Of a DNA stretch of 64,000 nucleotides, positions 1,715-11,060 are shown in pieces (the stretch's first letter is position 1; every line of letters starts with the position of its first letter). Below the pieces are notes generated by a model. That model worked only from the letters and a program-made list of their open reading frames with translations. It ran no database searches and had not been told where the DNA came from. Origin of the DNA: an uncultured Sphingomonadales bacterium (lineage in GTDB: Bacteria > Pseudomonadota > Alphaproteobacteria > Sphingomonadales > Rhodothalassiaceae). A program made the position numbers and the translations under genes. The DNA is taken from assembly GCA_947499155.1 (NCBI GenBank), contig CANMND010000001.1, positions 124,001 to 188,000 of the forward strand, in the 5' to 3' direction.

Positions 1715-1911
1715 CACGCTCTTTGACGGCACCCATTTGCCCTTTCTACAACAAAACATATTTTACACATTATAATAATAATAAAATAATTAATAGAATG
1801 ATTATAATAATGTATGAAAACTCGCAATATCATTCAAATAGCGTGCGTATACACTCACTACTATGATATAAATAATATAGCTAAATGGGTCTAAGGTGTG
1901 AGGGTAAGCAT

Positions 1912-3336
1912 ATGGCATCAACATCTGGCAATGAGTTATCATGTTTAAAAAAACTTCTAATCGTTGACCCTGCTCATGAAGGAGACGATGGCGCCGCCGC
2001 TGAGATCTCTCACCTCATTGATGATTACAAGTTGATTTATAGTATAGAATCAAAAATACCCGAATCTATCAAATACCAGTATTTTTGCGCTGCCCTTGTC
2101 TTGACAGATCGCGTCAACATGACAGCTACTCTGCATCAAAAATTGTGTACACTTTCTAAAATCTTAAGAACCATTGCTATAGTCGACAACTCAGAACAAG
2201 GCACTGCCCGGGTCAGTACTCTTCTCAAAAACGGTGCTCTTTATGATTTCCATACTCTGCCCCTGGATCCACAACGCTTCAGCCATATGATTGGACATTT
2301 ACGCGGTCTTGACCGGATATATGCAGCGTCACATCATGCAAATGGATCGTCAGGGCCTGCACTTCCACCCATTATCGGAACATCATCTCTCATCAATGCT
2401 GTCAAAGTTCAAATCGGACATTATGCCAATACAGACTTTCCGGTATTGATCACCGGTGAATCTGGCACTGGCAAAGAACTTGCCGCACGTGCGATCCATC
2501 TAAAATCGAGCCGCGCCAACAGCCCGTTTCTTGCCATTAATTGCGCAGCCATTCCGCAATCGCTTGCCGGATCCGAATTGTTTGGACATGAAAAAGGTGC
2601 CTTTACCGATGCTCACGCTTCACGGCCCGGATGCTTTGAACAGGCCTCAGGCGGCACCTTGTTTCTGGATGAAATTGGCGATCTTCCCCTGGATATCCAA
2701 TCCCAATTGCTGCGTGTTCTGGAGAACGGTCATCTTTACCGTATCGGTGGTCAGGAGCCGCGAAAAATTGACGTGCGCATCATAGCTGCATCCAATATTA
2801 ACATGGATAAAGCTGTACTCGCAGGCCGCTTCCGTTTCGACCTCTACCACCGGATCAATGTCCTTCCACTTAATATGCCCCCCTTGCGGGACCGGGAAGG
2901 CGATGCGCTTTTACTTGCCCGCGCATTCATTAACAAGATCGCCCATGACAATGATTTAGCCGTCTCAACTCTTTCAGACGACGCAATGCGCCTTATACTC
3001 ACCTATCGCTGGCCGGGGAACGTACGACAGTTGCAAAATGCCATATCCCGCGCAGTCACTTTGGCAAGTGATAATAAAATCAGGGCGCGCGACCTCAATA
3101 TTAATATAGACACACTCAAAGGACACCCGTTCATGACTCTGGCAAAAGCTCGCGCTGATACAGAGCGTGCCCTCGTCCGAAAAGCCATCCACGCATTCAG
3201 AGGAAACATCAGTCGCGCCGCCAGCGAGCTGGGGGTATCACGGGTTGGTCTTTATCGGCTGATGAAACGCCACGAACTTGATCACCGGAAAATGCTTAAT
3301 GGGGGAGCAGATCATGAGGAAAAGAGCGAACTATAG
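1912..3336 (+). CDS. Sigma54-type enhancer-binding regulator with variant GAFTDA motif
   Basis: A 474-residue activator in three parts. Residues about 10-140 form a degenerate receiver-like domain without a clear phospho-Asp pocket. The AAA+ domain has Walker A GESGTGKE at 182-189, the sigma54-contact loop as GAFTDA at 229-234 (normally GAFTGA), and Walker B GTLFLDEIGDL near 250. A Fis-type helix-turn-helix ends the protein (ISRAASELGVSRVGLYRL). The ATG at 1912 is chosen over 1885 because GAGGG sits seven bases upstream. The layout resembles VpsR/FleQ-like regulators of surface polymers. It overlaps the next gene by 23 bp, so both are probably co-expressed, and it is the obvious candidate activator of the fibre operon whose promoter lies at 7610. 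The Gly-to-Asp change may weaken sigma54 contact. Confidence 0.88.
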   Translation: MASTSGNELSCLKKLLIVDPAHEGDDGAAAEISHLIDDYKLIYSIESKIPESIKYQYFCAALVLTDRVNMTATLHQKLCTLSKILRTIAIVDNSEQGTARVSTLLKNGALYDFHTLPLDPQRFSHMIGHLRGLDRIYAASHHANGSSGPALPPIIGTSSLINAVKVQIGHYANTDFPVLITGESGTGKELAARAIHLKSSRANSPFLAINCAAIPQSLAGSELFGHEKGAFTDAHASRPGCFEQASGGTLFLDEIGDLPLDIQSQLLRVLENGHLYRIGGQEPRKIDVRIIAASNINMDKAVLAGRFRFDLYHRINVLPLNMPPLRDREGDALLLARAFINKIAHDNDLAVSTLSDDAMRLILTYRWPGNVRQLQNAISRAVTLASDNKIRARDLNINIDTLKGHPFMTLAKARADTERALVRKAIHAFRGNISRAASELGVSRVGLYRLMKRHELDHRKMLNGGADHEEKSEL

Positions 3337-4627
3337 AGCTCAGTCAAATTCACTTTTACCAGTCTTGCTCATCAGTGCTTGTCTCTCACCAACAACCCTA
3401 TTGGCCCAGGACGCATCGCCGGTCGATCAGCCCACACTTGCCGAACTGGAACGCATGAAGGCACAGATCGAGCGGCAAAAACAGCAATTGTCGGGCCAAA
3501 TCAAGCAACTTGCAGATCAACAACGGGTAATCAACTCACAAGCACAACAAATCGACCGCATGATCAATCGTCTGTCCCCGCAGAATTCAATCCCGGAGAT
3601 GGCTGTGCCACCTGATGCGAAGCAGGCTAGATCAGCACAAGCGCCAAGCCAAACCAAAGACCCCGACACACCCGTGGGACAACGAGCTGAAGCCGAACAG
3701 GCTGAACGCAGGACAACAACAGATATACCAATTTTTGCCGATATTGGTGGTGTACTGACACCAAGAGGACAATTCGCCCTTGAGCCTCGAGTAGATTACA
3801 CACATTCCGGCGTCACGCGTTTCTTTTTTCAAGGAGTAGAAATCGTTGATGTCGTGCTTGTCGGTCTGTTTGAATTGACCGATGCTGACCGTAACACGCT
3901 CACAAATTCCCTGACCGCACGCTATGGCATAACGGATCGCTTCGAAATCGACGCGGAAGTCTCCTATCTTTTTCGAAATGACCGCATCACCAATGAAGCG
4001 GTCAGTCTCGACAATCAGACCCTTGTTCGTGACCTGAGCGGCAATGGTGTAGGAGACGCAGAAATAGGTCTTCATTATCAATTAAATCGCGCGGGACGAG
4101 GCAGTCCGGTTTTCGTCGCCAATTTTCGCGCCAAATCAGACTTGGGCGAAGGGCCGTTTGAAATTGCCAGAGATCAGGATGGCCTGGAACTGGAACTGCC
4201 GGTTGGATCAGGATTCTGGACGCTGGAGCCCAGCATGACCATGCTCTACACACTGGATCCTGCCGTCCTGTTTTTCAATACCGGCTATCTTTTCAATATG
4301 GCCAAGGACGTTAACGCCCAAATCGGTGACACAATCGTTTCACGAGTCAATCCAGGTGACAGCATCCGCGCCGGATTTGGCATTGGCGTCGGACTGAATG
4401 AAACGCTCTCATTCAGTCTTGGTTATGAACATAATTACGTATTGGGAACAAAAACTCGGATTGAACAGTCCCGGTTCAAAACCAACTCTCTCCACGTCGG
4501 CAGCTTTTTATTCGGTCTGAGCCTCGCCCTGACCGACAATTTGGGGCTTAACCTCAGTACTCAACTGGGTGTAACCGATGACGCACCGGACATGCGTATC
4601 AGCCTGCGTTTGCCAATTCGTTTTTAG
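3314..4627 (+). CDS. FapF-like outer-membrane export protein (coiled coil plus beta barrel)
   Basis: The 437-residue protein has a signal peptide (cleavage near LLAQDAS), a Gln/Arg-rich coiled coil at about residues 42-88, a short polar linker, and from about residue 137 a run of alternating amphipathic strands ending in Phe (LPIRF), the usual outer-membrane barrel ending. This order is that of FapF, the trimeric barrel whose coiled-coil N-terminus gates export of Fap amyloid in Pseudomonas. The ATG at 3314 has GGGGGAG six bases upstream, inside the end of the regulator gene. It ends only 7 bp from the convergent stop of the fibre operon. The assignment rests on architecture and neighbours; a general transporter of the same fold is the alternative. 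Confidence 0.72.
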   Translation: MRKRANYRAQSNSLLPVLLISACLSPTTLLAQDASPVDQPTLAELERMKAQIERQKQQLSGQIKQLADQQRVINSQAQQIDRMINRLSPQNSIPEMAVPPDAKQARSAQAPSQTKDPDTPVGQRAEAEQAERRTTTDIPIFADIGGVLTPRGQFALEPRVDYTHSGVTRFFFQGVEIVDVVLVGLFELTDADRNTLTNSLTARYGITDRFEIDAEVSYLFRNDRITNEAVSLDNQTLVRDLSGNGVGDAEIGLHYQLNRAGRGSPVFVANFRAKSDLGEGPFEIARDQDGLELELPVGSGFWTLEPSMTMLYTLDPAVLFFNTGYLFNMAKDVNAQIGDTIVSRVNPGDSIRAGFGIGVGLNETLSFSLGYEHNYVLGTKTRIEQSRFKTNSLHVGSFLFGLSLALTDNLGLNLSTQLGVTDDAPDMRISLRLPIRF

Positions 4628-4634
4628 TGTGTGT

Positions 4635-5207
4635 TTACTGACGGTTATTTATCAAAGTAGATGCTCTGGCGATCTCGCTCATGCGTAGAGACATGCGCCC
4701 CGCCTGGGCAAGAGCATCCATATTCTCCATTACGATAGTCATCTCCATCCTTTGGGCAATGCTGATACCATTGCGCGTGTTTTCGATGATCATGGTACCA
4801 GGACCACCAGATGGCAGGGATACACCATCTGCGACTGCGATACCCTTTGGTCCAATGGTGATGGCGCCACTGCCCACCACCAGTGGCAGACCGCTGTCAA
4901 GAGTCGCCATCTGATTGGGTATAACCGGGATCAGCTTGCCATCTGATTGTACGGAAAAATGTGTTTCAACAATCGGTGCACCACCCACAAGAGTCTGGAT
5001 TGTCAGGCCAAGCAAAATGTCAAACGCTCCGATGCGAAAACCGCCACGTGCGGTATCAAGGGTACTGTCTGACATGGGCACAAGATCATGGAACGGGTCT
5101 TCATCAGCCAAAGACGCAAGAGGCGGGGCAACAAGCATCACCGCAAAAAACGCGCACCCTGCTCCCAATCGTCTTTTTCCTGATATGCCCGGACGCATTA
5201 TCTTCAT
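4635..5207 (-). CDS. Secreted Fap-associated protein with double-glycine-like leader
   Basis: A 190-residue exported protein: signal peptide up to about residue 34 (LASLAD), then an element beginning DPFHD at 37 and ending ARGG at 53-56. Met45, Leu50 and Ala53 occupy the -12, -7 and -4 places before Gly55-Gly56, the pattern cut by C39 proteases. After the GG come FRIG and a beta-like region rich in Gly and Ile. Proteins with this RGGF-plus-strand layout recur beside C39-family genes; I cannot assign a particular fap letter. Last gene of the fibre operon, 36 bp after the protease gene. An in-frame ATG at 5198 is an alternative start. Confidence 0.65.
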   Translation of the reverse strand: MKIMRPGISGKRRLGAGCAFFAVMLVAPPLASLADEDPFHDLVPMSDSTLDTARGGFRIGAFDILLGLTIQTLVGGAPIVETHFSVQSDGKLIPVIPNQMATLDSGLPLVVGSGAITIGPKGIAVADGVSLPSGGPGTMIIENTRNGISIAQRMEMTIVMENMDALAQAGRMSLRMSEIARASTLINNRQ

Positions 5208-5243
5208 CTTTCTGGCCAGGCGGGGCCCTACAAATTCTGCACC

Positions 5244-5987
5244 TCAAAAGCTGTTGGCACCACGCCAAAGCTGTACGGTAAAGTCTGACAGGGAATGCTG
5301 GGACAGGCTTGACCCCAGCGGAGCCTTAACGCGAACAGACCAGTCGCTGTGCCGGTTGAAGTTCTCACGCCCTTTTCCCACTCTGCTTCGGATGACAAAA
5401 GCAACGCCATCCCAGATTTCATTGAATTCGGCCCGGGTCATGACCCGCATGCCCAGGGCAGGGTCGCCCAGCAATACCTCGTCCCCCTGAATGCCCTTGA
5501 GCACAATAAAATGCCGGTATCCAAAGGTATTGACCAAAACAATGGCCGGAATGCCTGCCTTGTCCAGCCTGTCAAGATCAAGACGAAATCCGTCTGACCT
5601 GAAACCCATGCCTTCAAGATATGTTTTCATGTCTAAAAGTGAGAAACCGACTTTTTGAATTTTGTCCTTGTCGCCGGCCTCATACATGGCACGGAAAACG
5701 TCCATCTCACTTACCGGAACGCCGTAATGATGAGCTAAAAGCGTAGCCGTTGCAGCCGAACCGCAACTGAAGTCAAAACGCTGCGGCACTACATTACGAA
5801 AGCGCGCCTCGCGCATCGTCTCAACGGATATCTGAAATGTTCCCCCAAAGCCCGGTACATATAACGTGCCCGCCGAGGCTAACTTGAAAAATCCCGGATT
5901 GATCGACAAAACAAGTGCGATAATCAGTGCCACACCCGATCCACGGATAAAGCCAGGTCTTCTCATATGTGTAAATCTGGTGGTCAT
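5244..5987 (-). CDS. C39-like cysteine protease, FapD-like
   Basis: This 247-residue protein has an N-terminal hydrophobic segment (about 17-39, signal peptide or anchor) and a papain-like C39 domain: Gln69, the nucleophile Cys75 in DFSCGSAA, His159 in GYRHFIVLKG and Asp175 in LGDPALG. All catalytic positions are present. C39 domains normally remove double-glycine leaders inside ABC exporters; here the domain is stand-alone and exported, as in FapD of the Pseudomonas fap operon. The start overlaps the stop of the previous gene as ATGA, so the two are translationally coupled. Its likely substrates are the two neighbouring secreted proteins with GG leaders (inference). Confidence 0.85.
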   Translation of the reverse strand: MTTRFTHMRRPGFIRGSGVALIIALVLSINPGFFKLASAGTLYVPGFGGTFQISVETMREARFRNVVPQRFDFSCGSAATATLLAHHYGVPVSEMDVFRAMYEAGDKDKIQKVGFSLLDMKTYLEGMGFRSDGFRLDLDRLDKAGIPAIVLVNTFGYRHFIVLKGIQGDEVLLGDPALGMRVMTRAEFNEIWDGVAFVIRSRVGKGRENFNRHSDWSVRVKAPLGSSLSQHSLSDFTVQLWRGANSF

Positions 5988-6403
5988 TTGACAAAAACAT
6001 TGACCTGAATGCTGCTCTGGAAATTAACATTATTACCAGTATTAAACATCAGGGAGTTAATCCCCGATAGCTGCTCGATGGTGTTTCTGGATATGCCGCC
6101 ATTGGTAAAATGACCGCTCATGCTGGTGTCAGAAACACCTGCCGTCTGGTTGGACAGATTGACTGCGAGATCGCCAAGATTAAGGCTCGCACCACCTGCC
6201 ATGCCACCCAACTCCACTTCAGCAAAAGGTGAAAAGTCGGAAAATGGGTCTGTCGCCTCATTTACGCTGCTGTCCGATGGAGCAATCTGTTGCCCCACCT
6301 CTTGTACTGCCTGGGCGGTTTGCGCCGTAGCCAGAGCAGGTAATAATAACAGCGAAGTCGAAAATATGGTGGCTGTCACCCCACGCAGATAAAAACTGGT
6401 CAT
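5984..6403 (-). CDS. Small secreted fibre-like protein with double-glycine-like leader
   Basis: A 139-residue exported protein, signal peptide ending near ALATAQ (residue 28). Residues 52-71 begin DPFSDF and end MAGG, with Phe60, Glu64-Leu65 and Met68 at -12, -8/-7 and -4 of Gly70-Gly71: a textbook double-glycine leader, co-linear with that of the protein at 4635-5207. The C terminus has SGINSL, NTG and a Gln-Ser-Ser-Ile-x-Val-Asn run that also appears at the end of the large repeat protein encoded just upstream, suggesting a nucleator or minor fibre subunit. The ATG at 6403 follows AGGAGG by five bases. No database family is recognised from memory. Confidence 0.65.
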   Translation of the reverse strand: MTSFYLRGVTATIFSTSLLLLPALATAQTAQAVQEVGQQIAPSDSSVNEATDPFSDFSPFAEVELGGMAGGASLNLGDLAVNLSNQTAGVSDTSMSGHFTNGGISRNTIEQLSGINSLMFNTGNNVNFQSSIQVNVFVK

Positions 6404-6489
6404 CCCATCCTCCTGCAAATGCATGGATTTCGCAGCGGAAGCAGGTGTGGGCCTTAACCCACTCCTGCTCGCCGAAGCCGGATGGCCTG

Positions 6490-7467
6490 TCAGCCACCAA
6501 ACGAATTGTTGATGGTGGCGTTGACATTAATAACGGAATTCTGGTTAGCAAAACCCGTGTTGTAATGCTGTTGCACCAGACCGTTTATACCGCTAGTCGT
6601 GTTGCTGTTGATATTGCCGGTATAGATACTACCACCCTCACAGCAGTCTTCGCCTGAAGAAGGTGTACCAGCAGTCAGGGATATCCCGCTCACGCTTGTG
6701 CTAAGTGATGTATTGCTGAGCATGATGTCACCAACACTGAGATCAAGATCATAGCCATCATCGTCGGAACTGTCATTGAATGAGCCATTCAATGAATTAT
6801 CCACATCCAGGCCATCATCATCGGAATTATCGTCGGTTGTGGTGTTTCCGGAATTGTCGATGTCAGTTCCATCAGAATCCGAGCGGTCCGAACTATCATT
6901 CCCCGAATTATCAATGTCAGATCCGTCGTCATCCGAATTATCGTCTACATTAGTAGTCGTGGTGTCTGATGAATTGTTGGAATCGGACGTATTACCCGAA
7001 TTATCAACGTCCAATAAGTCATCATCCGAATTATCATCGGTACTTGTAGTCGTAGTTGTTGTATCTGACGAATTGTTGGAATCGGTAGTATTCCCAGAAT
7101 TATCAACGTCCAATAAGTCATCATCCGAATTATCGTCGGTATTTGTAGTCGTGGTTGCTGTGTCTGATGAATTGTTGGAATCGGTAGTATTCCCAGAATT
7201 ATCAACGTCTTGACCGTCATTATCCTGATCATTGGCAGCCAAATCACCGCCGGCATTACCACCGTCGCCAGCTTGAGAACTGTCACTCGCACTTCCTGTT
7301 CCGGAATTCTGGTTGGTGCCAGCATCTTGTGCACCTTGCGAGCCATTATCGGCCTGCTTTACAACATCGGGACCGTTATCATCAGCCTCTTGTGCATAGG
7401 CACCACCTGCCAAAGCAATACTCAATCCAAGGGCCGACGCTGTCATTAAAAGAAAAGACCGTGTCAT
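6490..7467 (-). CDS. Acidic Asp/Ser/Asn/Thr-rich repeat protein, probable fibre subunit
   Basis: First gene of the operon. The 325-residue protein has a signal peptide (ending AGGAYAQ), a Gly/Gln/Asn-rich spacer, then 33-residue repeats built on DVDNSGNT, DSNNSSD, a Thr run and DDNSDDD, followed by shorter degenerate units, and a C-terminal domain with a Cys-Cys pair (GEDCCEGG) and the SGING...NTG...Gln-Asn motif shared with the gene at 5984. Fap and curli fibre proteins are also secreted and repeat-built with Asn/Gln/Gly at key sites, but this composition is far more acidic and could bind calcium. ATG 7467 is chosen for GGAGA eight bases upstream; 7491 lacks one. A fibre role is inferred from context. 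Confidence 0.7.
   Translation of the reverse strand: MTRSFLLMTASALGLSIALAGGAYAQEADDNGPDVVKQADNGSQGAQDAGTNQNSGTGSASDSSQAGDGGNAGGDLAANDQDNDGQDVDNSGNTTDSNNSSDTATTTTNTDDNSDDDLLDVDNSGNTTDSNNSSDTTTTTTSTDDNSDDDLLDVDNSGNTSDSNNSSDTTTTNVDDNSDDDGSDIDNSGNDSSDRSDSDGTDIDNSGNTTTDDNSDDDGLDVDNSLNGSFNDSSDDDGYDLDLSVGDIMLSNTSLSTSVSGISLTAGTPSSGEDCCEGGSIYTGNINSNTTSGINGLVQQHYNTGFANQNSVINVNATINNSFGG
6798..7213 (-). repeat. In-frame tandem repeats, 99 bp period with degenerate shorter units
   Basis: Two adjacent 99 bp units (7002-7100 and 7101-7199), a related 93 bp unit from 6909 and shorter 54-57 bp units down to about 6798, all within the acidic repeat protein. Each starts at a conserved TATCAACGTC-like string on the + strand. 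Neighbouring units are highly similar, so recent expansion or slippage is likely. Confidence 0.85.
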
Positions 7468-7609
7468 TGCATGTCTCCATTCAAATTCCATTTCACCGCC
7501 TAATGGCAGCAGGGATCACAGACGTTTGGGGCTCATTGCAACAAATCGGAAGGTCTCCGGCCTTCTCAAAGGTTGGACCTAATCCCCCAACACCGTTGGC
7601 GAAGACAGT

Positions 7610-7624
7610 GCAATTTACATACCA
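7610..7624 (-). promoter_or_regulatory. Sigma54-type -24/-12 promoter for the fibre operon
   Basis: Read on the minus strand, TGG-TATG-TAAA-TTGC has the exact TGG-N8-TTGC spacing of sigma54 promoters (consensus TGGCACG-N4-TTGC), with GG near 7623 and GC near 7610. It lies about 145 bp before the operon start codon at 7467. The middle bases are not optimal. Confidence 0.5.
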
Positions 7625-7829
7625 AAACTATAAAATAAGAAAATATCATTTAAATTCATTGAGATACCGGACAATATCAAATGATTTTGATTGAAGTCAG
7701 AGATAAAGCTGTTACTTATGGTTAACGCACTGTCCGGACCATCCTGATGACAATCACAAACGACGCGCCAGCCCGTTGAAATATAACAAAATACGGCACA
7801 TTGCCCACTTTTCACTTTTGTAACAGACT

Positions 7830-7855
7830 GTCGCTCCCAAACTGGAGGGAGCGAC
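7830..7855. promoter_or_regulatory. Palindrome, candidate upstream activator site
   Basis: GTCGCTCCC (7830-7838) and GGGAGCGAC (7847-7855) form a perfect 9 bp inverted repeat with an 8 bp spacer. No T-run follows on either strand, so it is unlikely to be a terminator. It is about 230 bp upstream of the putative sigma54 promoter, where enhancer sites commonly sit. An imperfect IHF-like sequence (TATCAAATGATT, 7675-7686) lies between. The rest of the 530 bp between operon and tRNA-Lys shows no gene. Confidence 0.4.
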
Positions 7856-7954
7856 CATCTGAATGGTGAAAGGTGGCTGTAATTACTGGCCAGCACGTGC
7901 AAAAAAATACTGCACCTATGGAAAGCGGGACTGGCCCAAAGCCCAATTAAAAAG

Positions 7955-7989
7955 CAAAAAAGCGCCCGGCCAATAAGGTCCAAGCGCTT
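7955..7989 (-). terminator. Terminator of tRNA-Lys
   Basis: On the minus strand AAGCGCTTGG (7989-7980) pairs with CCGGGCGCTT (7969-7960), ten pairs with two G-U, then a T-run. It follows the tRNA by seven bases. Confidence 0.8.
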
Positions 7990-7996
7990 TATCTGA

Positions 7997-8071
<75 letters not shown>

Positions 8072-8183
8072 GCACATGACAGCCTTTAACCGAAAAACTG
8101 ACAAGGCGCGTTTCTTAACCCATCCAAAGAGGCCTGTCCAGAAAGGAATCGCTCTTCACTTTCCTACGGTTGCAATGCGCCCA

Positions 8184-8223
8184 ACTAAAAGGCCGGACAC
8201 AGTATTGTACCCGGCCTTTTAGT
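8184..8223 (-). terminator. Terminator of tRNA-Pro(GGG)
   Basis: ACTAAAAGGCCGG (8184-8196) and CCGGCCTTTTAGT (8211-8223) are a perfect 13 bp inverted repeat with 14-base loop, seven bases beyond the tRNA 3' end. A/T runs in the stem make it usable in both directions. Confidence 0.85.
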
Positions 8224-8230
8224 CACAAAA

Positions 8231-8307
8231 TGGTCGGAGCGGCGGGATTTGAACCCACGACCCCTACACCCCCAGTGTAGTGCGCTACCAGGCTGCGCTA
8301 CGCTCCG
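8231..8307 (-). tRNA. tRNA-Pro (GGG)
   Basis: Acceptor CGGAGCG/CGCTCCG, D-arm TAGCGCAGCCTGGTAGCGCA, anticodon stem CTACA/TGTAG with loop CTGGGGG (anticodon GGG), T-arm GGGTTCAAATCC, and encoded ACCA end. Confidence 0.96.
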
Positions 8308-8610
8308 TAAGCGACGGTCGAACTTATAGGCGGCAATATGGGGAGGACGCAACCATGAAAACACATCATCTGCGATTTACGATCTGCAGACGCATTTTTG
8401 CCCTTACTTCTCACGCCTGGCACTTGCGGCCGCCTGTCAGCGGACCTCTGTGCCGTGCCGTACGATTATGATAAGTATTGTCAAAATCTACCGCAAAACC
8501 CTTCTCTGGAGCATATCCTTGCGTGGCGGGCATCAGGCGGTGCAATCATAAAGCTATAACAGCCTGATCGATCGCGCACCTGATTGTAGGATATACGCCG
8601 CAATTTTTGC
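8308..8610. other. Intergenic region, no feature recognised
   Basis: About 300 bp upstream of tRNA-Pro and downstream of the DUF1801 gene. A 63-codon + strand frame overlaps the tRNA and looks random. It probably holds the tRNA promoter; no strong boxes were identified. Confidence 0.5.
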
Positions 8611-9030
8611 TCAATCCGCATATTTCTGGCGCATATGGGAGAATGACAAGGCGACCAGTTCTTCCAGAACCGTCATATCAATATCTGACAAACGATTGAT
8701 ATAAAGGCAGGATTTTCCTGTTTTGTATTTCCCCAAACACACCAAAAGCCGTTCATAGTCTGAAAAGCCAGGCATGATATATAAAACCAGATTTGCTTTC
8801 CGGGGCGAAAACCCGGTCAGCATCCACGTTCCCTCTTGCCCGCTATCATAGCGATAGTGATATGTACCAAAGCCAATGATCGATGGCCCCCACATCACAG
8901 CCGGCTCGCCGGTAATCTTGCGCATCAAGGATAAAAGCGTAAGGCCATCGGCCCGGCGCGTTTCATTTTCAATTGAGTTGATAAAATCTTCCGGGGACTG
9001 GTCCGTCTGTTTTGTTTTATTTTCAGCCAT
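8611..9030 (-). CDS. DUF1801 domain protein
   Basis: A 139-residue soluble protein with the DUF1801/YdhG-like core: an N-terminal helix (SPEDFINSIENETRRADGLTL), GEPAVMWGPSIIGFGTYHYRY, then KANLVLYIMPGF and KTGKSCLYINRLSDID near the end. The domain is small, alpha/beta and of unknown function, sometimes linked to iron or stress. Start at 9030 is chosen because GGAGG precedes it within a usable distance; 9048 has no clear site. It lies 23 bp after merR and may be read through from the plsX operon. Confidence 0.85.
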   Translation of the reverse strand: MAENKTKQTDQSPEDFINSIENETRRADGLTLLSLMRKITGEPAVMWGPSIIGFGTYHYRYDSGQEGTWMLTGFSPRKANLVLYIMPGFSDYERLLVCLGKYKTGKSCLYINRLSDIDMTVLEELVALSFSHMRQKYAD

Positions 9031-9052
9031 CAGACGGTTACCTCCCATTCAC

Positions 9053-9619
9053 TTAATCCAGCATGGCTCTAAGCGCTTTCAACTCTTCCAGAATGTCTGC
9101 CAGAACGTCAGCCGAAATATCTACTGTATGAGCATGACCAGATGAAGGTGCTACCGGCCCCGTGTCTTTATCCGCACCGGACGACGACGCAATATCTGAA
9201 GACGGATCTGGATGAGACTGCCTTCCACTCGACGAGGCTTCATCTTCGAATGATCCAGCGACTCCTGCCAGAACTGCTTTTACACCCTGTTCACGAAAGC
9301 GCTTTTGCACACCCTTGATGGTGATACCCTCTTCATAAAGAAGAGTTTTGATCGCACGCAAAAGTTCAATGTCTACAGGCCGGTAATAGCGCCGGTTACC
9401 ACCCCTCTTTAAAGGTTTTATCTGTGTGAAACGGGTTTCCCAGAAGCGCAGGACATGCTGTGGCAAATCAAGCAGCTCAGACACTTCGCCAATGGTGCGA
9501 AAAGCCCGGCCCGATTTTTCCGAAGCGGGCTTGTCCTCATTCATGGAAGAATTTGAGCGCATGCGCATTTCTGGGCCAGACATGGCACCATGATCTTTAT
9601 CAGACTTTTGAAGAGCCAT
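9053..9619 (-). CDS. MerR family transcriptional regulator
   Basis: A 188-residue protein. After a polar tail of some 40 residues comes a MerR winged helix: [25 protein letters not shown], then [23 protein letters not shown] and [17 protein letters not shown] low-complexity Ser/Asp-rich linker and a short helical end ([13 protein letters not shown]) follow; no Cys cluster for metal sensing is seen. In alphaproteobacteria a MerR gene of this kind regularly follows ihfA. Start has AGGAG six bases upstream. Target genes and inducer are unknown. Confidence 0.9.
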
Positions 9620-9636
9620 GGAGTTCTCCTGATGGC

Positions 9637-9951
9637 TCAGGCCCGGTCCTTTCCGGACAACGAGGCGTTGATGCGGTCTTTCATCACCTGACTCGGGCGA
9701 AAAACCAGAACTCGGCGTGGCTCGATCGGCACTTCTTCACCCGTCTTGGGATTTCGGCCAATGCGACCACCCTTGTCTCGCAGAACAAAGCTGCCAAAGG
9801 ACGATATCTTCACATTCTGACCGGACACCAAAGCATCATCAATGGCCCCCAGTACCTGTTCTACCAGGTCGGCAGATTCGTTTCGCGACAAGCCGACTTC
9901 CTGATAAACCGCTTCAGACAGTTCCGCCCGCGTCACAGTATGTTTCGACAT
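9637..9951 (-). CDS. ihfA: Integration host factor subunit alpha
   Basis: A 104-residue HU/IHF-fold protein that, with IhfB, bends DNA at promoters, recombination sites and origins. Seen here: [17 protein letters not shown] at the start, [27 protein letters not shown] forming the beta arm, and [18 protein letters not shown] at the end, which is IhfA-like rather than HU. The ATG at 9951 is preferred to 9957 or 9969 because GGAGG lies eight bases upstream. IHF could also serve the sigma54-type promoter of the fibre operon in this window. Confidence 0.94.
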
Positions 9952-10082
9952 GGCCATATCCTCCGACATTAGAGACTTTAGCGTATGTTGATAAAGACAG
10001 CATGTCAATCAACGTCTTAGAGCGCACTTATGAGATTGTACCCGATATCTGTTGTCAGTGTTGTGCCAAGGCTATTCGCGCC

Positions 10083-11060
10083 TTACCAACGCAACAGGGA
10101 GGCTCCCCATGTAAAGCCGCCTCCCATGGCTTCCAGCAGAAGCAGGTCGCCTTCCTTTATTCGGCCATCACGAACTGCCACATCTAGGGCCAAGGGGATG
10201 GATGCTGCCGATGTGTTGGAGTGCTTACCCACTGTTACAACCACCTTTTCAGGCGGAAGTCCCAGCTTGCGCGACGTGCCATCCAGAATACGTTTGTTGG
10301 CCTGATGGGGTATAAGCCAGTCAAGATCGTCGGCCGTCAGTCCAACAGCGTCGAGCGATTCGTTAACAACGGATGCAAGATTTACAACGGCATGACGAAA
10401 TACGTCCCGTCCTTTCATCCGCAAATGGCCGACTGTTCCTGTACTTGAAGGGCCACCGTCCACATAAAGCAGATCACGATAGCGCCCGTCGGAATGGAGA
10501 TGGCTGGTCAGAATACCGCGATCATCTGACGTGCCCTTGCCTTCATGCGCTTCCAGAACCACAGCTCCTGCCCCATCGCCAAACAAAACGCATGTGGTTC
10601 TGTCCTCAAAATCAAGGATGCGGGAGAAGGTTTCAGCACCGATCACCAGCGCCCGCTTGACCTGGCCTGCCTTGATAAAGTTATCCGCTGTCGCAAGAGC
10701 GTAGACAAAGCCCGAGCAGACCGCTTGCATATCAAAGGCAAATCCACTGGTCATTCCAAGCGCTGCCTGAACCGTTGCGGCACTGGCAGGAAATGTCTGG
10801 TCTGGCGTCGCCGTAGCCAAAACGATCATATCAAGGGACTCAGCGTCTATCCCTGCCATTTCCAGCGCACGCTCCGCCGCCTTGATCGCCAGATCAGATG
10901 TCTTTTCATCATCGGCTGCAAAATGACGGACATTGATACCAGTTCTTGAGACGATCCACTCGTCGCTGGTATCGACCATGCGCGTCATTTCTTCATTGGT
11001 AACGATGCGCTTTGGCAGGTAACTGCCGGTACCGCGTACTATAGAGCGAATTATTTTCAC
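10083..11060 (-). CDS. fabH: 3-oxoacyl-ACP synthase III (FabH)
   Basis: FabH starts fatty-acid synthesis by condensing acetyl-CoA with malonyl-ACP. The 325-residue thiolase-fold protein shows the catalytic Cys in [10 protein letters not shown], His in [11 protein letters not shown] and Asn in [12 protein letters not shown], plus [10 protein letters not shown]. Length is standard. Translation begins with GTG at 11060, immediately after the plsX stop, with AGGA just upstream, so it is coupled to plsX; the gene order plsX-fabH-ihfA-merR is common in alphaproteobacteria. Confidence 0.96.

Follow-up and report, generated by a model that had tools for sequence, protein, structure and literature searches.

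A 64,000-nucleotide stretch from the 2.81 Mb genome of an uncultured Sphingomonadales bacterium (contig CANMND010000001.1, positions 124,001 to 188,000; the whole stretch is called the window, and positions are counted from its first letter) encodes two secreted proteins on either side of the gene for an exported, stand-alone C39 protease. Both proteins, named here by the first position of their genes as the 4635 and 5984 products, carry near the N terminus a 20-residue element resembling the double-glycine leaders known from bacteriocin exporters. We put the probability at about 75% that this element is a FapD-type recognition and cleavage leader in an amyloid or fibre secretion system like the Fap system of Pseudomonas. 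It is read as recognition and cut site because its register is that of C39 leaders, because the protease family matches LahT, PCAT1 and ComA and keeps its catalytic residues, and because the active-site cysteine of FapD is needed in Pseudomonas.

Two leader elements beside one protease

A preliminary description, made from the DNA letters, had placed the elements at residues 37-56 of the 4635 product and 52-71 of the 5984 product. This proved right, as did the residues it named: Met45 and Phe60 at -12, Leu50 and Leu65 at -7, and Ala53 and Met68 at -4. With Gly at both -2 and -1, each protein shows the features of a double-glycine leader (a hydrophobic residue at -12 and -7, Gly at -2, and Gly, Ala or Ser at -1). 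At -8 the elements have Thr (4635) and Glu (5984), so that Glu is found only in the latter. Also as first described, the C39-type leader stands behind a Sec-like signal, next to an exported C39 protease with an intact Gln/Cys/His/Asp set. In the C39 proteases of peptide exporters, a hydrophobic groove takes up residues -4, -7 and -12 of a leader helix of two turns, and cleavage follows the Gly-Gly; the leader consensus of ComA reads Leu(-12)-x3-Glu(-8)-Leu(-7) before the double Gly (PMC6363468; this and all other papers are cited for their accessible parts).

One could ask whether small residues following a signal peptide merely happen to form a GG-like pattern in both proteins. The elements were ranked against a background of 312 open reading frames (ORFs) of at least 60 residues across the whole window, using 18-position profiles trained on elements of other loci, with the window and its sister locus L033 left out. 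These elements come from two families, called FapE-type (that of the 4635 product) and B-type (that of the 5984 product). With the combined profile of both families the 4635 product leads at 26.5 bits, the 5984 product follows at 11.2 bits and the next ORF scores 9.9 bits; among 3840 other ORFs of related loci none reaches the 4635 score and nine reach that of 5984, seven of the nine being themselves element-bearing proteins of related loci. The FapE-type profile alone gives 28.2 for 4635 and 4.6, the 99th percentile of the background, for 5984. The B-type profile alone puts 5984 first (13.7), an unrelated ORF second (13.2) and 4635 third (12.6). Run on the bacterium's whole own genome, a hidden Markov model (HMM) of 20 leaders from other genomes finds 4635 at 7.7e-6, 5984 at 0.36 and a partial third match at 1.16. 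By these scores the 4635 element is strong by itself; the 5984 element, weak on its own, draws its support from its family, in which 31 of 31 members carry it. Coincidence could draw on that weak E value in the bacterium's own genome and on the failure of the -4 rule in relatives. Against the two top ranks among 312 ORFs with a held-out profile, and an element found in 59 of 59 and 31 of 31 family members, it is hardly credible, and for 4635 it was already very unlikely from profile rank, HMM and column conservation.

Conservation of the element in related loci

Homologues of the protease occur at 1e-15 in 29 of 196 genomes of the order, and the FapD model finds matches at 1e-20 in 38 of 398 genomes of the phylum. 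Regions were taken around all 29 other places of the order search and around most matches of the phylum search, where G569:C11, G280:C23, G337:C26 and G380:C1 were left out of 46 FapD-model matches; the resulting set holds 68 proteases in 66 sources, window included. The alphaproteobacterium Iodidimonas muriae JCM 17843 (L032) has a protease with 73% identity over residues 39-247. A FapE-type gene lies beside 59 of the 68 proteases, 54 recognized by position and five more with a wrongly long start. These genes are 58 different proteins in 57 loci and not all independent, as the L108 pair is identical and L103 and L127 are nearly so. The nine proteases without such a gene are six Fil-type ones and those of L060, L061 and L119; at L074 no gene was seen downstream of the protease. 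A profile of 14 FapE-type proteins matches in 20 of the 196 genomes of the order, all of them among the 29 with the protease and each with a match adjoining it. The other nine protease genomes have no match at that threshold, though some have a FapE-type gene by position.

The 4635 product has no direct NCBIfam or Pfam match and falls outside NCBIfam FapE (NF058559, cut-off 250). Because an iterative HMM search starting from it links it to the genes directly behind canonical FapD, it is, by homology, the FapE of a sister lineage. The label canonical fap rests here on NCBIfam matches: in L094, for example, FapA (215.6 against a cut-off of 100), FapC (271.5 against 195), FapE (345.5 against 250) and FapD (419.9 against 330) all exceed their cut-offs, and the FapE-type genes of L053, L058, L101 and L102 match NCBIfam FapE below it.

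In these FapE-type genes the element is kept throughout. Our first search pattern, [LM]xxx[RT]G[GRK][FYMLI] within the first 160 residues, is present in 52 of the 54 positional genes; of the other two, L057 carries His in place of Arg, and L111 has its element deeper in the ORF, the start of which is too long. Across all 59 genes, position -12 is hydrophobic (LIVMFAYWC) in 59, with Ala or Cys in four; -7 is Leu or Met in 59, -2 is Gly in 59, and Arg stands at -3 in 56, Phe or Tyr at +1 in 55 and Glu at -8 in 35. Position -1 is Gly in 33, Arg in 14 and Lys in 12. Alignment across homologues, the check proposed in the preliminary description, thus divides the pattern on which that description relied: -12, -7 and -2 are conserved, but -4 is hydrophobic in only 39 of 59 FapE-type and 14 of 31 B-type proteins, and the second Gly varies, so that the GG pair of both window proteins is not general and is in FapE the form of one clade.

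Several controls bear on these counts. A stricter pattern finds 58 of the 59 FapE-type genes and 7 of the 3840 other ORFs. When the profile is built from Gly forms only, FapE comes out on top of its locus, all ORFs counted, for 24 of the 26 Arg/Lys genes (the exceptions are the two L117 copies, at ranks 2 and 3 of 77), and the profile picks the same residues in 26 of 26. In the reverse direction, a profile of the Arg/Lys forms ranks the Gly-form FapE first in 25 of 33 genes and picks the same residues in 32 of 33. Among 194 FapE columns, in an alignment that starts 12 residues before the profile window, the three most conserved are the element's +1, -2 and -7. Separately, the FapE-type proteins of L034-L039 carry long low-complexity inserts between the leader half and the C-terminal motif, with ORFs of 349-587 amino acids, the longest of which has a long start.

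The second protein type shows the same element. Of the 68 proteases, 31 have a B-type gene as their immediate upstream neighbour. All 31 products carry the element, and its -1 residue is Gly in 21, Arg in 8, Lys in 1 and Gln in 1; the loose B-type pattern occurs in 63 of 1320 background proteins of 100-225 amino acids. FapE-type and B-type families are linked by HMM, and this raises the alternative that conservation reflects nothing more than their common descent: a single inherited N terminus could account for both occurrences in the operon, and the leader would have no role in recognition. We think this very improbable, as the element holds the most conserved columns of FapE, whose body is far more divergent, and as it recurs in FapF linkers and FilA-like proteins.

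FilA-like proteins beside Fil-type C39 genes show M/L-x-D-x-x-L-x-x-x-T-G-Q in four of the six Fil-type loci (L123, L124, L125 and L126), and the element was not found in the other two, L121 and L122. The proteins of L123, L125 and L126 are FilA-like by NCBIfam, below the cut-off, and that of L125 also matches Pfam DUF6160. Among 65 porins whose FapF linker, from coiled coil to barrel, was tested, nine had at most 2 of 200 shuffles scoring as high. In L051, L052, L053, L056, L057 and L058, which come from a single family (f6) of the order, the linker carries the element, with at most 1 of 200 shuffles as high and Arg, Ala or Thr at -1. In six canonical-type fap loci (L092, L094, L095, L096, L099 and L102, five of them with FapD over its cut-off), FapE scores 34.7 to 41.9 and the other operon genes score below 7. 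FapE belongs to the training set of that profile, so the low scores of the other genes are the informative part. High scores confined to FapE agree with mass spectrometry, by which FapE is the sole Fap protein with complete N-terminal processing (PMC5557850).

Some further proteins deserve mention. Among 11 selected proteins in the FapA position (L092-L104; that of L094 is FapA by NCBIfam, that of L099 matches FapA below cut-off), [LM]-[SGNT]-D-x-D-[FIY] occurs in 11, followed in 10 by x4-[SAG]-G, which places Gly at -1. By this motif FapA may also be a FapD target, against which stands that FapA peptides were seen throughout the protein (PMC5557850). At the upstream end of their operons, L117 (8001-8444 and 12269-12703) and L106 (8457-8951) encode small secreted proteins that have strong elements (S-I-R-G-R-F, Q-R-G-G) and no NCBIfam match. 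In L108 the trio of B-type, protease and FapE-type genes is duplicated in tandem (4524-6106 and 7388-8970), with identical proteases and neighbours equal in length and score, and L117 holds two protease/FapE pairs in one fap locus (3967-5511 and 8878-10423). Upstream of the distant stand-alone C39 genes of L060 and L061, whose proteases sit on long branches, small secreted proteins (6155-6505 and 5975-6430) have the motif L-x-D-x-x-L-D-x-[LV]-T-A-G, which we take to be close to bacteriocin-type GG leaders.

The protease and the proposed cut

The window protease belongs to Pfam C39 (PF03412; 73.9 bits against a gathering cut-off of 22, 1.4e-20), its N terminus looks Sec-like by eye, and models of ABC exporters match only its peptidase part. 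The best PDB matches of its family are the GG protease LahT (6mpz, 6.5e-14), PCAT1 (1.1e-10) and ComA (1.5e-6), with Cys, His and Asp aligned in the LahT and PCAT1 alignments. All 68 aligned proteases keep Gln69, Cys75, His159 and Asp175. A tree of the proteases places the 26 Arg/Lys rows together in a supported clade (99/95) and 32 of the 33 Gly rows, the window among them, in another (96/94); L059, the remaining Gly row, comes out as sister of the Arg/Lys clade, though its branch is long and its placement unsure. By this tree the -1 difference is a clade trait, and the Gly clade represents a sister Fap-like system in which most proteases have a B-type gene immediately upstream. The Gly and Arg/Lys groups also differ at certain protease positions (71, 77, 87, 105 and 110 are examples), but these follow the two clades and are not called specificity residues.

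The preliminary description knew of no described mechanism for periplasmic GG-leader maturation tied to fibre assembly. This needs correcting, as FapD of Pseudomonas is already described in fibre secretion: it is a periplasmic C39 protease whose active-site Cys38 is needed for secretion of FapC, and its C38A variant abolished secretion (PMC5557850). The same paper proposes FapE as the likely FapD target and points out GG and GA motifs in FapE and FapF, and in its account the Fap proteins have no canonical C39 sequence. Elsewhere, C39 proteases are said to cleave double-glycine motifs, of which FapF contains one (PMC5135000). The FapD substrate was stated as still to be determined in 2018 (PMC6173800), and in 2025 FapD is still 'thought to process' FapE and FapF (PMC12822426). 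In our searches of the Fap, Fil and C39 literature, including PMC3684753 and PMC6173795 (mostly openly accessible papers, without their supplements), we did not find the element described as a FapD site.

How might the element work? In the reading we favour, the subunits and the protease would cross the inner membrane by Sec. A periplasmic FapD-like C39 protease would then recognize a short helical leader near the N terminus of the 4635 and 5984 proteins by a hydrophobic residue at -12, an acidic one at -10 or -8, Leu or Met at -7 and Gly at -2. It would cut after Gly-Gly or, where FapE belongs to the other clade, behind or within the Gly-Arg/Lys pair; the cut predicted for the 4635 product is after Gly56 (or Gly55). 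Once the propeptide of about 20 residues is removed, these minor subunits would be able to pass through the FapF-like pore or to open it, and to anchor or nucleate a fibre whose bulk would be the leaderless product of the 6490 gene.

A number of points weigh against this reading. The -1 (P1) residue is Arg or Lys in 26 of 59 FapE-type proteins and Arg, Lys or Gln in 10 of 31 B-type ones, and since C39 pockets are narrow at the GG site (PMC6363468), such residues would fit poorly if the bond after -1 were cut. Each of those ten B-type genes, spread over nine loci, is accompanied by a GG FapE with which it has the protease in common. Only the first Gly is invariant, and one protease would serve both GG and G-R/K/Q proteins: either Arg or Lys is tolerated in the pocket at P1, or the bond that is cut is the one behind the first Gly. 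The FapE peptides missing in Pseudomonas reach to about residue 70 (PMC5557850), beyond the element, whose P1 in the L094 FapE is residue 40. A cut in the FapF linker has also been suggested (PMC5557850), and the window's FapF has no element; FapC, moreover, is described as the protein modified by FapD (PMC10638192). The search patterns fix -7 and -2, so that the counts there are partly by construction and the controls matter, and among those the reverse transfer leaves 8 of 33 genes not first (the worst, L120, at rank 20 of 54). The split at -1 follows the two protease clades and is therefore not independent evidence of co-evolution, and L119 has a protease of the Gly clade, yet no FapE-type gene was found there. 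AlphaFold models of the protease and the FapE-type protein, from two-sequence alignments, are unusable (pLDDT 37.6 and 34.7).

The same P1 residues, which do not suit a C39 cut, would be easier to understand if the element were a docking tag, by which the C39 domain or FapF holds the minor subunits in the manner of a chaperone, a role that degenerate C39-like domains play in type I exporters; the binding residues at -12 and -7 and the first Gly are also better kept than the second Gly. We regard this as unlikely, however: a tag would not explain why Gln, Cys, His and Asp are intact in every protease of the set, nor would it explain the loss of secretion in Pseudomonas FapD C38A and the absence of N-terminal FapE peptides (PMC5557850).

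Beyond the cleavable leader proposed for the window, we lean towards the view that FapD-type proteases across Pseudomonadota share one substrate code, [hydrophobic]-12..D-10..L/M-7..R-3 G-2 [G/R/K]-1 before the cut and [F/Y]+1 behind it. This code would mark FapE, a second type of subunit, FilA and some of the linkers in FapF. The two clades would accept different -1 residues (Gly versus Arg/Lys), and GG-leader processing would have moved from ABC exporters to the periplasm and drifted from the second Gly.

The locus and its place among known systems

Judged by its genes, the locus is related to the operon for functional amyloid (Fap) in Pseudomonas, with a FapD-like protease, a FapF-like porin and the 4635 gene in both the position and the family of FapE (Table 1); the fibre would be an amyloid by analogy with these relatives. 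The leader thus belongs to a fibre-secretion locus, which bears out the tie proposed in the preliminary description. On the minus strand the genes follow in the order 6490-7467, 5984-6403, 5244-5987 (the protease) and 4635-5207, the last directly downstream of the protease gene, whose start overlaps the end of the 5984 gene. On the plus strand the sigma-54 activator gene overlaps the start of the porin gene.

Table 1. Features of the fibre-secretion locus, in window coordinates.
Feature	Position	Strand	Match or residues
Sigma-54 activator, candidate regulator	1885..3336	+	Pfam Sigma54_activat 3.1e-66
FapF-like outer-membrane porin with N-terminal coiled-coil-like region	3314..4627	+	NCBIfam FapF 3.3e-46, FilC 8.4e-17
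FapE-family secreted protein, 190 amino acids: Sec-like signal, leader element, body, C-terminal N-rich motif	4635..5207	-	
Leader element of the FapE-type protein, residues 37-56, DPFHDLVPMSDSTLDTARGG	5040..5099	-	
Exported stand-alone C39 protease, FapD-like, 247 amino acids	5244..5987	-	Gln69, Cys75, His159, Asp175
B-type small secreted subunit, 139 amino acids, carrying the second leader element	5984..6403	-	
Leader element of the 5984 (B-type) product, residues 52-71, DPFSDFSPFAEVELGGMAGG	6191..6250	-	
Probable main fibre subunit, 325 amino acids: long acidic D/N/S repeats, N-rich C terminus	6490..7467	-	
Candidate sigma-54 promoter box TGGTATGTAAATTGC, two mismatches, upstream of the 6490 gene	7610..7624	-	

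With Fap the locus shares an exported C39 protease between a subunit gene and FapE, a FapF-type porin, N-rich subunits with signal peptides, and a FapE that carries the same element. It differs in that its protease, of the sister clade, and its porin are related to the NCBIfam FapD and FapF models but score below their cut-offs (NF058616, 153.2 bits, E 6.2e-45, equivalog cut-off 330; NF058560, 157.9 bits, cut-off 700). Neither the 6490 nor the 5984 product matches NCBIfam FapB or FapC, so that no FapB or FapC is recognised in the window; the B-type subunit has its own leader, GG replaces G-R/K, and the porin gene lies on the other strand with a sigma-54 activator. The Fil putative pilus system (FilA, the C39 protease FilB and the porin FilC) likewise has a FilA-like element beside the C39 gene at four of six loci, but the window protease reaches only 116.1 bits with FilB (NF050078, 1.8e-33, cut-off 475), the porin stays below the curated FilC cut-off, and no window protein scanned with NCBIfam matches FilA. 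With the C39 domains of PCAT/AMS exporters (LahT, PCAT1 and ComA, its best PDB matches), the system has in common the leader spacing of -12/-8/-7 plus GG. Unlike there, the window protease lacks an ABC transporter part, protease and leader proteins look Sec-exported, and the predicted substrates are proteins of a fibre system, not peptides.

The 6490 product is without the leader element (best element score -4.3), which was also sought and not found in the linker of the window's porin (-3.3). Homologues of the 6490 product are present in L033-L038; those of L034, L037 and L038 match the B-family HMM (2e-10, 2e-11 and 2e-7), and the window's own 6490 product is not matched by it. By the look of the sequence, its repeats (6490-7467), rich in DDNSDDD, resemble calcium-binding Asp/Asn loops and are putative sites of that kind. 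Candidate sigma-54 boxes are no more frequent in the window than expected by chance (32 found, 28.3 expected), so that the box upstream of the 6490 gene is uninformative in the window alone. Its recurrence in relatives is suggestive: in seven of seven loci (window and L033-L038) the main-subunit gene has a sigma-54-type box of no more than two mismatches close to its start; the box is the same in L035 and L036 and lies at -26 (L037) and +15 (L038) of the called starts.

Paired fapD and fapF homologues have been noted in five additional phyla (PMC6173800), and systems of the Gly clade would probably be passed over by surveys that require FapB/C repeats (PMC12392863, PMC12822426). That a periplasmic C39 protease is needed for fibre secretion was already known (PMC5557850); what this analysis adds is a conserved element as its candidate site. 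The element gives the question of the FapD target an exact residue, both in Pseudomonas and in a sister system with a plain Gly-Gly. If our reading is true, it would link the double-glycine leaders of bacteriocin exporters with the assembly of extracellular amyloid.

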